Shown: one piece after another, positions 1,674 through 46,908 of the stretch
How positions within the stretch are numbered: the first letter of the stretch is position 1
Layout of the letters: each line of letters starts with the position of its first letter
NCBI GenBank assembly: GCA_023251455.1
Contig: JAHEYT010000024.1
Location: 105,219-169,218, forward strand
Direction of reading: 5' to 3'
From: Bacteroidota bacterium
Lineage (GTDB): Bacteria; Bacteroidota; Bacteroidia; Bacteroidales; Prolixibacteraceae
DNA length: 64,000 nucleotides
Translations under genes and position numbers: made by a program
Notes under the pieces: model-generated
Told to the model about the DNA's origin: nothing
Seen by the model: only the letters and a program-made list of their open reading frames with translations
Database searches by the model: none

Positions 1674-2249
1674 TTATTTAAATTCAATGTCAACTCCATC
1701 AAATCTATCTAGCATTTGAGGTAAGTTCAGAGTTTCAATTTCTAAAATTCTACAAATTGCGGGAATCTTCTTAAAAACTTTTGAATCATTACTATCCTCA
1801 GTCTCTTCAGTTACCAAATAGATTTCTTGCTGAGGATTGATCTTTTTTAAATTTAGACAGAACAGAATCAACCTCATATCAGCTGAATTTAGAAAGTCAC
1901 TCTTGCGATTTTCATATTCAACTGGAGTAAGCTTATTCTTTATTACACCATTTATAAACTGATTATCAATTTGTCTATAGAATTTTGCCGGAGCTGGCGG
2001 TAGTATGTATTCGGTGTTTACGGGTATTTTAAATGACTTGAGAAAAGATTTTTCGGCCAAGAAACCTAGCGAGCTTAAAACCATTCCTTTTGATATGTAC
2101 TCACATTCTTCCAGTATTTTATCAATAATGATTATTTCACCAGAAGAAATTTTCTCTTTTATAAACGAAAATAAAACGGAGTTCTTATCGAATGGTAAGT
2201 AGTAACGAACCAACGACAATAATGAGTTTGTGTCGATTACTACTTTCAT
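1674..2249 (-). CDS. PIN-domain protein (putative toxin-like nuclease), partner of the ImmA-type peptidase
   Basis: A 191-residue protein starting with the PIN signature VVIDTNSLL (first catalytic Asp). Further acidic candidates for the metal site lie in LEECEY, SADMRLI and the TEETEDSND stretch near the C-terminus. PIN domains are Mg-dependent ribonucleases, frequently toxins of type II toxin-antitoxin systems. The length and this partner resemble the DUF4411-type PIN proteins that travel with ImmA/IrrE peptidases. Its ATG overlaps the TGA of the upstream gene by four bases (ATGA), showing translational coupling. Base composition is AT-richer than the flanking GH43 and kinase genes, consistent with accessory DNA. 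The toxin role is inferred. Confidence 0.75.
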   Translation of the reverse strand: MKVVIDTNSLLSLVRYYLPFDKNSVLFSFIKEKISSGEIIIIDKILEECEYISKGMVLSSLGFLAEKSFLKSFKIPVNTEYILPPAPAKFYRQIDNQFINGVIKNKLTPVEYENRKSDFLNSADMRLILFCLNLKKINPQQEIYLVTEETEDSNDSKVFKKIPAICRILEIETLNLPQMLDRFDGVDIEFK

Positions 2250-3403
2250 TGAATATACTTTTCTAGTTTATCTGGTTTAATATTTAGTCGTTTGCAAACT
2301 TCATATTCATTAATAACACCTTCATAAAAAGCTGTTTGTATTGTTGAAATTAATAAAGGAGAATTAATTGGTTTCGGGGTTGAGCCTCCTGGTTTAATCC
2401 CATTTTGCTTTTCTAATTCTCTTTGTTTTTTTTCTTCCTCTTGTCTTACTTTGAACTGTTCGTCAAAATCAGCCTTTATGGTATTGTAGTTGGCTTTAGA
2501 AATCTTGTTTTGAAAAAGAAGTCTTGTGAAAAGTGCGATCTGACTTAAATGAGTTTTATTAGAAACTTTTTCTATAATCTCAAAATGATAATCATTTGAA
2601 GAATCGGCTCTGTCAATTTTATCAATTAAGTTGTCATAACTTCCTGCCAAATAATAATAGGCAAACTCATTACACCAATTTTCAATTTTACTCAAATTGG
2701 GTTTAGCCAAGCTATTATAATCCAGTTGTTCAACTTCTTCTTCATTTAGCAGGAAATGACCAAGCTCATGTATGAGAGTAAAAATCTCCCGTCTAAAGGA
2801 CGTTTGCTGACGTTTTAAAACAATGACATTTGGGTTTAAAAAGAATCCGTCTATATTCGCTTTGTCCTTTTTGTTCCATGTCTCAACAAACTCGAATACA
2901 AGAATATTATTTTCAGCAAATTTTGCGATTAGTGCTTTTAGAAACTCTTTTTTATCCGTAGTAAATTCAGGATAAAATTGATTCCTGATTTGCTTGGCAA
3001 CAGCTTTAGGATTGTCAGTAATATTATATATGGGCAATGTTCTATCAACATTCAGTTCAGCAAGTTTGGCAATTGCTGATAATGATATTTTAAATTCCTC
3101 AAACTGATTAACAATTTTCTTAGCTCCAATATTTAGATCTAAGTCAAATTTCTGTTTACGAAAAAATATACTTGCATCTTTTGAAATCTCTGGCGATTTA
3201 GGATCCAAATAAAAATGAAGTCCTTTAGTAAATACTTTATCTATTCTTTTCAAATACCCTAGTTCAATCTCAGGAGAAAAAATACTTTCTTCAGATATCG
3301 GCTTCTTGAGTCCTTCATTTATTATAATGAGCAAGTCGTCCACTGACATTTTGTATAATGCCAACAGATACCTGAGCCTCGATATGTTTTGTTCTATTTT
3401 CAA
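2246..3403 (-). CDS. ImmA/IrrE family zinc metallopeptidase with divergent N-terminal helical region
   Basis: A 385-residue protein with a zinc-peptidase motif HELGHFLLNEEE at about residue 212, typical of the ImmA/IrrE (DUF955) family that cleaves repressors or regulators. The first about 60 residues are helical and could be a degenerate XRE-like helix-turn-helix. A charged linker (EEEKKQRELEKQNG) precedes a C-terminal segment. The gene overlaps the PIN gene by 4 bp and forms a two-gene unit with it. The track start is a TTG codon. An in-frame stop lies just upstream and the first ATG is 18 codons further in (about base 3349), so the start is uncertain. A combined regulator/antitoxin role for this pair is an inference from neighbourhood and family. 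Confidence 0.78.
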   Translation of the reverse strand: MKIEQNISRLRYLLALYKMSVDDLLIIINEGLKKPISEESIFSPEIELGYLKRIDKVFTKGLHFYLDPKSPEISKDASIFFRKQKFDLDLNIGAKKIVNQFEEFKISLSAIAKLAELNVDRTLPIYNITDNPKAVAKQIRNQFYPEFTTDKKEFLKALIAKFAENNILVFEFVETWNKKDKANIDGFFLNPNVIVLKRQQTSFRREIFTLIHELGHFLLNEEEVEQLDYNSLAKPNLSKIENWCNEFAYYYLAGSYDNLIDKIDRADSSNDYHFEIIEKVSNKTHLSQIALFTRLLFQNKISKANYNTIKADFDEQFKVRQEEEKKQRELEKQNGIKPGGSTPKPINSPLLISTIQTAFYEGVINEYEVCKRLNIKPDKLEKYIQ

Positions 3404-3688
3404 GAAGTCAAAAATTTTAAGTCTTCAAAAATACATTTTTGGATTGATTTTCAACGAGTCTCCTCGTCTCTAAAGATCACGTTCCAATATAACACTAACA
3501 AATGTAATGATATTCATTGATTTTATAGCTATCTAATTTTTGCTAATCCCATTCATGAAAATCAGTCAAATGACTGTCATTGTAGTCTTTTACAAGCATC
3601 CGCCTTCGTCATTCTAATCGAGAACTCCCTACGACTGCTCCAGTCTTAGTTTCTTCCTTTAATCAGGCTTCCGGTGAGTATCGCGTTA

Positions 3689-3910
3689 TTCTAAAAGAAT
3701 AAAATTTTCGGCTCGGAGTGAAGAACGTGACTCTTTTAGTGAGAATTGTGCCCGCTAAAAGAGAGAAAATCGTCGCTTCGAGAGCCAATGACCTCACTCG
3801 GAGAACCAAATTTGCCACTCAAAGAAGGGGTCATTGACTCTCGGAGTGGGGTGCTTGAGTCTTTTTGCCGGAAATTAATCTCTTTGAGCAGGGTAGCTTC
3901 ATGTTGAGAT
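3689..3910. repeat. 21-22 bp periodic array of CTnnnAG cores in a 547-bp gene-free gap
   Basis: The gap 3404-3950 holds no credible ORF. Within it, ten 7-mers of the form CTnnnAG start at 3691, 3712, 3733, 3755, 3776, 3797, 3818, 3840, 3861 and 3882 (CTAAAAG, CTCGGAG, CTTTTAG, CTAAAAG, CTTCGAG, CTCGGAG, CTCAAAG, CTCGGAG, CTTTTTG, CTTTGAG). Spacings are 21,21,22,21,21,21,22,21,21. CT is invariant and AG is present in nine of ten. The 14-15 nt between cores are not conserved. Some segments pair: 3731-3739 with 3755-3763 (perfect 9 bp) and 3780-3793 with 3829-3842 (one mismatch). The array starts about 40 bp past the stop codon of the 156-residue gene. Function unknown. Confidence 0.7.
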
Positions 3911-3950
3911 GCTGAACTTGTTTCAATATCTATAAAATGGCTGCTTGAAA

Positions 3951-4421
3951 CTAATAATAGTTCCGGTACACACTCGAATTTATCAAATCATCCAGTTGTG
4001 CTTTGATAAGCACGATTCCAATGAAGACAAACATCAGGAAAAATAGGATTCCAGAGCCTACGGAGATAACCAATTCAGCATTTGCATATAAACTTATGGC
4101 TGTTCCGGCAATAACAGAACAGCATAAAGCAAAAAAATACAAACTATCAAGCTTGACTGTCCAGCTTATTTTTAATTCTTCTTTTTGTTTGTCGATGATA
4201 ATGTTTCCTTCCTTATAAATCCGAAACAGGATTGGATTCGTTTCAATATAACCAGAAACAGATAATATGCTAATGGTCTTAAATTCAATTACATTTCCAG
4301 ATACATAGGTTCTTGCCTTCATTGAATTTAGCCGGGACTCCATTTTTGATTTGATGGTACTGATGTCGTTGATTTTTCTTTCAGTAATGATTGATGTTCC
4401 ACGCAGTTCAAAAAAATTCAT
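3951..4421 (-). CDS. Small membrane protein of unknown function
   Basis: A 156-residue protein that I do not recognise. Residues 1-90 are soluble, with a beta-rich stretch (VSGNVIEFKTISILSVSGYI). Two closely spaced hydrophobic helices follow (about 94-112, FFALCCSVIAGTAI; about 118-140, SGILFFLMFVFIGIVLI), then a short polar tail. The topology suggests an inner-membrane protein with most of its mass on one side. It starts at an ATG, stands alone with more than 200 bp on both sides, and its 3' end leads directly into the CTnnnAG array. No catalytic motif is visible, and I cannot assign a function. Confidence 0.6.
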   Translation of the reverse strand: MNFFELRGTSIITERKINDISTIKSKMESRLNSMKARTYVSGNVIEFKTISILSVSGYIETNPILFRIYKEGNIIIDKQKEELKISWTVKLDSLYFFALCCSVIAGTAISLYANAELVISVGSGILFFLMFVFIGIVLIKAQLDDLINSSVYRNYY

Positions 4422-46698: not shown

Positions 46699-46908
46699 AG
46701 GATTCCCTTTGCGTAATACATAAATCGCTTTCTAAATTACATAAATCCCTCTACATATTTTAATTTATATGATGTTAATTTTATAATTCCCTCTTTGTCT
46801 TTCATAATTCCATTTGCGGTTTTTGAAATATGTATTAGATGATTTATAATTCCCTTTCTATTATTTGATTTTCGCTGTACATAAAACAAAAATCGCTGTG
46901 GCCTTTTG
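46699..46908 (-). repeat. 21-bp period array with 12-nt core and 9-nt variable segment
   Basis: Ten consecutive 21-bp units in exact register (starts 46699, 46720, 46741, 46762, 46783, 46804, 46825, 46846, 46867, 46888). Read on the minus strand each unit is nine variable bases then a core close to AAAGGGAWTTAT. Core matches to the consensus by plus-strand start: 46846 12/12; 46720, 46741, 46783 and 46804 11/12; 46699 10/12; 46888 9/12. Units 46762, 46825 and 46867 are eroded. No indels break the 21-bp phase. The array begins 28 bp after the stop codon of the 247-residue gene and is followed by a terminator. The 457-bp gap holds no credible gene. It is too short-period for CRISPR. Confidence 0.75.

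Follow-up and report, generated by a model that had tools for sequence, protein, structure and literature searches.

In type III toxin-antitoxin systems of the ToxIN kind, a repeat array sits beside a gene with a terminator between the two; the array precedes the toxin and is built of units of about 36 nt. On the F plasmid, the sopC array lies just downstream of sopB. This array, the parS site of the plasmid, consists of twelve 43-bp repeats with ten 16-bp inverted repeats and is bound by SopB/ParB (PMC6238139). A RAYT gene is accompanied by its own extragenic palindromes (REP, or BIME), which have further copies in the genome and whose regularly spaced units alternate in orientation (PMC2817692). 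The nearest reported minisatellite in the Bacteroidota is BrickBuilt, a minisatellite-MITE of Porphyromonas gingivalis. It is a dispersed intergenic tandem repeat, near terminators in 10 of 19 cases, with a 23-nt unit of one sequence family, leader and tail segments, and an occurrence limited to P. gingivalis (PMC4596501).

Here we analyze a tandem array of 21/22-bp units at 3.69 kb of the window, by which we mean the whole 64,000-nt stretch of DNA under study (on contig C64 of the host genome, G000). It belongs to a group of arrays that are linked to three uncharacterized and mutually unrelated protein families, called A, B and C below. The F-plasmid parS and RAYT/REP are the nearest analogues of these arrays in logic. 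The likeness to parS is in the tandem arrangement of some 12 units and in palindromic binding motifs, which in parS are bound by a partition protein. However, the present arrays are chromosomal, have locus-specific sequences and go with three unrelated families; a plasmid search gave no match for A, B or the window array, neither A nor B has a ParB-type domain, and no conserved third gene such as ParA was found beside either. Palindromic repeats in alternating orientation, as in RAYT/REP, are seen in A-type arrays only and not in those of B or C. Moreover, no HUH/Y1 transposase is linked to the arrays, the Y1_Tnp genes of the genome are not beside the arrays sampled, and whereas two inverted REPs flank RAYT genes, the present arrays are one-sided, with a 21-bp unit in strict phase. 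That unit also differs from the unit of BrickBuilt, for which the accessible text describes no linkage to a protein family (PMC4596501). Unlike the ToxIN array, the arrays of A and B are 3' of their genes, and neither A nor B matches a toxin family. No system that we compared fits, since A and B lack ParB and Y1 domains and since unit length and arrangement differ. Literature searches, for which subscription papers were mostly outside coverage, returned no description of these arrays, and an earlier description is possible. To our knowledge, no system has been described in which three unrelated protein families go with locus-specific arrays that have nothing but a helical-phase rule in common. 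The link between these arrays and the three families points to an undescribed system of proteins and DNA arrays, and no known family fits it.

The array at 3.69 kb

The array lies within the intergenic stretch 3404-3950 (Table 1). A small membrane-protein gene, with its terminator-like hairpin, ends 41 bp before it, and it is itself upstream of a gene of the ImmA/IrrE type, which is followed by a DUF4411 PIN-like gene. These last two genes (1674-3403) are a probable toxin-antitoxin-type pair beside the array. The CT dinucleotides of its ten units start at 3691, 3712, 3733, 3755, 3776, 3797, 3818, 3840, 3861 and 3882, giving spacings of 21, 21, 22, 21, 21, 21, 22, 21 and 21; CTnnnAG is present in nine of the ten units, the exception being unit 9 at 3861, with CTTTTTG. 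The initial annotation of this DNA had placed all ten positions and nine spacings exactly to the base, and its count of nine CTs followed by AG after three bases is correct. It was also right in calling the core mostly palindromic; the cores are self-complementary or complementary to one another within the array (CTAAAAG/CTTTTAG, CTCAAAG/CTTTGAG, CTCGGAG). The right end of the array, CTTTGAGCAGGGTA, is common to related arrays.

Table 1. Coordinates of the features of the window
Feature	Position	Strand	Remarks
DUF4411/PIN-like protein	1674..2249	-	Start overlaps end of the 2246-3403 gene
ImmA/IrrE-type (Peptidase_M78) protein	2246..3403	-	Left neighbour of array; distantly like spr1629 repressor/antitoxin family
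Left flank of array	3649..3690	.	Similar, along with array, at G013:C19
Array of ten 21/22-bp units	3691..3903	not assigned	
Cores of units 1-5, in order	array 3691..3903		CTAAAAG, CTCGGAG, CTTTTAG, CTAAAAG, CTTCGAG
Cores of units 6-10, in order	array 3691..3903		CTCGGAG, CTCAAAG, CTCGGAG, CTTTTTG, CTTTGAG
Terminator-like hairpin, GTTTCAA...TTGAAAC	3920..3951	-	3' end of right-hand gene; array just beyond
Small membrane-like protein, 156 aa	3951..4421	-	Array 3' of gene; no firm family assignment
Second 21-bp array of window, TTATAATTCCC-type units	46700..46890	.	3' array of adjoining family-B gene
Family-B gene, 247 aa	46936..47679	-	Basic, predicted all-helical, internally duplicated

In this region, CTNNNAG recurs at 21/22-bp steps in a chain of up to 8 units. 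No chain exceeded 3 when the region was shuffled 20,000 times with dinucleotides preserved; therefore, a chance origin of the array is excluded. Across the remainder of the window the longest such chain is 1. At lag 21, identity amounts to 0.43, compared with a shuffled mean of 0.25, and none of the shuffles came up to 0.43 at any lag from 10 to 39. An excess of 21-22 bp periodicity over shuffled sequence, which the annotation had set as a test, was thus found.

A unit of 21 bp is a multiple of 3, and some arrays of this period do contain an open frame, so that one might read them as coding minisatellites in which each unit supplies the seven codons of a heptad-repeat peptide. We give this idea hardly any credence. 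Stop-free frames occur at close to the rate of a column-permuted null, and the variation among units has no codon-position periodicity. For the window it is rejected: no open frame runs through the 3.69-kb array on either strand or through the 46.7-kb array, and arrays of 22 and 43 bp also exist.

Relatives of the array and conservation of its core

A search of the host genome for three CTNNNAG units with 14-15-bp gaps gave 13 matches, as opposed to 3 with the reversed control, and these matches cluster into several arrays. Arrays of this kind are present in seven genomes of the genus, and many have cores that switch between CTAAAAG and CTTTTAG or are self-complementary (CTCNGAG), so that neighbouring cores are reverse complements of each other. 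Across the genus arrays, core complementarity at lag 1 is 5.21 of 7 against 4.45 when permuted (z=8.2), and at lag 2 it has a z of -5.6. Recurrence elsewhere in the genome and in relatives, the other test that had been proposed, is therefore seen in both.

When aligned locally and scored against shuffles, the window array is similar to an A gene's array on C80, a contig of the host genome (z = 8.5), to a second gene-less array, on C22 (z=22.6), to the array of an A-gene relative at G013:C65, G013 being the genome of a sister species (z=47.5), and to an orphan array at G013:C19 (z=69.8); it has no similarity to other array types. Because it resembles A-linked arrays and none of the other types, we assign the 3.69-kb array to the A type, with which it shares the 21/22-bp phase, the CT..AG core and likeness to a gene-linked array. 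We call it an orphan since no A gene adjoins it, its neighbours being the ImmA/IrrE-type protein and the small membrane protein. The nearest A gene of matching type is on contig C80 of the host genome (G000:C80:25637-26080), and the array behind this gene is the nearest gene-linked relative in that genome. The 3.69-kb array is thus a dispersed copy, with no gene of its own, of an array that goes with a protein family whose gene is at another place. The initial annotation had missed this, although what it said of the period, of the near-palindromic core and of the period shared with the other array of the window stands.

The G013:C19 array, found by BLAST, is 80% identical to the window array over positions 100-362 of the query, including about 40 bp of left flank, and is flanked by different genes. 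Since the left flank is similar together with the array, the dispersed unit exceeds the repeats and spans approximately 3649-3911. Between these two arrays none of 36 CT/AG core positions has changed, compared with 41 of 188 other positions (p=3e-4), and because the pair was found by BLAST and not through the motif, this comparison is unbiased by motif selection. When six array pairs are pooled, five of which involve arrays found through the motif, the core has changed at 13 of 200 positions (6.5%) and the remainder at 247 of 1259 (about 20%; p=7e-7). Homogenization between units could mimic part of this pattern of core conservation.

Gene-less arrays at several sites in one genome, and an array that shares its left flank between G000:C64 and G013:C19 while standing between different neighbours, are what one would expect of a mobile or selfish repeat. 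Gene and array would then move, with the orphans being non-autonomous copies spread by the linked protein in the manner of RAYT/REP. The patchy, multi-copy distribution agrees with such a history, as does the fixed orientation of window-type arrays at the 3' ends of genes. We nevertheless think it rather unlikely to be the explanation, as neither A nor B contains a transposase domain, the Y1 transposases of the host are far from the arrays, a non-exhaustive search found no target-site duplications or terminal repeats, plasmids and phages gave no matches (the phage search was made with B), and the strict phase would be left unexplained. A search of viral contigs gave one B relative, with a 21-bp array after the gene.

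Farther afield, long CTNNNAG tandem arrays with a 21-bp period are frequent in Nostocales and Oscillatoria (L113-L192), and a pattern scan of 85,000 species returned mostly ordinary near-perfect tandem repeats. Two related genomes (G253 and G334; loci L067 and L068) carry an orthologous array whose fourth core reads CTCTAAG in one and CTTAGAG in the other. The two are exact reverse complements, which suggests that a small inversion may have taken place at a hairpin.

Linkage to three protein families

Family A is an uncharacterized family of about 160 aa that adjoins arrays at G000:C80, G013:C65, G010:C21, G018:C67 and G014:C511, and also an array at L115, in a Bacteroidales genome from the termite gut. 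Family B, of about 250 aa, adjoins the 46.7-kb array of the window and an array at 93 kb of G000:C84. Family C was first met beside an array at 7 kb of G000:C84; its proteins begin with a region of about 210 aa, to which some members add a carboxypeptidase-regulatory-like domain. Families A and B have no match beyond noise in Pfam, NCBIfam or PHROG and no sequence match in the PDB, and profile comparison shows no significant homology among the three families. Family B has a clear internal duplication (E=8e-12), the sequence of family C is suggestive of one (E=0.003), and none was detected in family A. Family B is basic, with a pI of about 9.4, and family A is acidic. The predicted model of family B is all-helical (pLDDT 79), with no PDB fold match at E<=0.001 and no recognized DNA-binding fold; for family A, an AlphaFold model made from one sequence had a pLDDT of 40. 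Family B occurs in 15 of 22 genomes with C, at a p of about 6e-13 if the smaller genome sample is taken to be contained in the larger.

When 747 kb of the host genome, on contigs picked partly for holding arrays, were scanned for tandem periods of 10 to 63, periods of 21, 42 and 63 dominated, in arrays of quite different sequences. Linkage was tested by searching for the proteins, rather than the arrays, across the order or phylum and scoring the flanks for periodicity; a locus was counted when a 21-bp-class array was the top periodic signal within 700 bp of the gene. In the Bacteroidota, family A has an array 3' in 25 of 35 loci (20 of 29 when only loci from the protein search are taken) and 5' in 1 of 34. 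Family B is similar, with 22 of 30 loci 3' and 3 of 27 5'. Family C has the opposite arrangement, with arrays 5' in 19 of 29 loci and 3' in 1 of 29 (Fisher p=3e-7). Control genes of the host genome have a 3' array in 7 of 461 cases, giving Fisher p values of 6e-28 for A and 9e-26 for B, with controls all from the host genus, an array detector that uses thresholds and genomes that are partly fragmentary.

A segmentation model recognizes an array at 30 of 35 A, 23 of 29 B and 22 of 28 C loci, and none at the other 5, 6 and 6, respectively; the mean numbers of units are 11.4, 11.5 and 14.1. The median distance from the stop codon to the start of the array is 80 bp in A and 64 bp in B, and a terminator-like hairpin was found in 17 of 30 A and 9 of 23 B loci (2 and 1 when shuffled). 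The A and B arrays are therefore outside the transcription unit, beyond its terminators, and those of C are upstream of the gene. When any spacing of 16-27 bp was accepted, 603 of the 680 gaps measured exactly 21 bp, with means of 21.03 (A), 21.02 (B) and 20.93 (C). The period that the annotation had seen to be common to the two arrays of the window is in fact shared by the arrays of all three protein families and is their key feature. Besides this geometry of two helical turns and about a dozen units, the arrays have in common that they are outside the transcription unit and on one side of the gene.

In each family the array sequence is locus-specific and the period constant, a higher-order period of 42 bp is common, and near-perfect 21-bp repeats occur in other phyla too. 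All of this could follow if some intrinsic mutational process generated 21-bp tandem duplications and the arrays had no function. Such a process would not account for the linkage to genes and its sidedness, for the approximately 11 units in both A and B arrays, for the conserved cores or for a symmetry that tracks the protein family (see below), and we regard it as quite improbable.

Symmetry, folding and a model for the arrays

Array symmetry follows the linked protein family. A dyad with z>2 is present in 76% of 37 A arrays, a sample weighted to the genus of the window, and a dyad was found in 15 of 23 loci of a phylum-wide search, whereas z>2 was reached in 0 of 23 B arrays and 2 of 22 C arrays. 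The window array taken alone has a weak dyad (z=1.0, scored without modelling its 22-bp steps), with the core in register in 7 of 10 units. Family-A arrays fold strongly on both strands, with a mean z of about -4.6, and the 3.69-kb array does so with a z of about -3 to -4; folding of family-B arrays is weak and is partly due to terminator hairpins. The suggestion that parts of the array can form hairpins is thus borne out at 3.69 kb but carries over only weakly to the B arrays. Because hairpins are typical of A arrays and weak in B, they are not the shared function.

The strong folding of A arrays on both strands, together with the alternation of adjoining cores as reverse complements in the genus, would suit an action at the level of RNA, in which the arrays are transcribed into repeat RNAs (chains of hairpins in A) for the linked protein to bind or process, in a layout like that of type III toxin-antitoxin systems. 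We consider this unlikely. B arrays have neither a dyad nor more than weak folding and C arrays have no dyad, the arrays are beyond terminators or upstream of the gene, RNA would not need a strict 21.0-bp period, and an Rfam search of the window gave no match.

The explanation that we favour, although we would give it only about an even chance, is that the arrays are multivalent DNA-binding platforms for the linked proteins. Each array would offer about 10-14 binding sites two helical turns apart, and hence all on one face of the helix, on which the linked protein would form an ordered, multivalent assembly. Proteins of family A would act as symmetric dimers bound to dyad cores, such as CTnnnAG in the 3.69-kb array, and families B and C would bind as pseudo-dimers on asymmetric units, the internal duplication being clear for B. 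On orphan copies such as the 3.69-kb array the linked protein would act in trans. We favour a same-face protein-DNA assembly of this kind because it would explain why single-copy A proteins go with dyad sites and duplicated proteins with asymmetric ones. That the proteins bind the arrays, and bind them as DNA, is what we infer from these features; a downstream role, for example in local chromosome organization or in insulation beyond the transcription unit, may be inferred as well. Against a platform speak the lack of a recognized DNA-binding fold, the acidic nature of the A proteins, the different arrays of closely related B paralogues (see below) and the A, B and C loci that have no array. 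Moreover, that three families among which no homology was detected have the same period could be due instead to a host factor common to them or to a mutational mechanism.

More broadly, we put forward, with belief and doubt in about equal measure, that the Bacteroidota have an undescribed chromosomal system in which unrelated helical protein families keep private one-sided arrays and gene-less copies of them. What is conserved would be the geometry (a period of 21.0 bp, some 12 units, the presence or absence of a dyad) and not the sequence, and the proteins would either assemble on the arrays or write them. If they assemble on them, bacteria would have a nucleoprotein structure of a new kind, whose geometric code can be tested; if they generate them, it would be a new way to write repeats into chromosomes. 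Either way, the arrays provide a first handle on three multi-copy protein families and an explanation for a class of intergenic repeats in the Bacteroidota.

The 46.7-kb array and other loci

The product of the family-B gene beside the 46.7-kb array has no Pfam, NCBIfam or PHROG match and no match in the PDB by sequence or fold. A paralogous pair of B gene and array is present at G000:C84:92382-93400; the two proteins are 61% identical and their arrays differ in sequence, so that a recognition code between protein and array is not evident.

Several further loci were noted. In another Bacteroidales genome (L071 and G180 loci), two palindromes offset by 21 bp, ACCTGTCAGGT...ACCTGACAGGT, recur as a dispersed pair without forming longer arrays. 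At L078 (15240-15500; about 133 kb of G000:C39), a 42-bp tandem array stands behind a response-regulator gene, with no recognized A, B or C gene adjoining. A gene-less 21/42-bp array (TTTTGTTGGGTTATAATTTCG) lies between divergent genes at L056 (5999-6161; about 12.0 kb of G000:C39), and its units resemble those of the 46.7-kb array. Finally, L335 (G000:C92, 57.5-63.5 kb) carries a fragment of a family-B gene and a 21-bp array on one stretch, and looks like a decayed gene-array pair.
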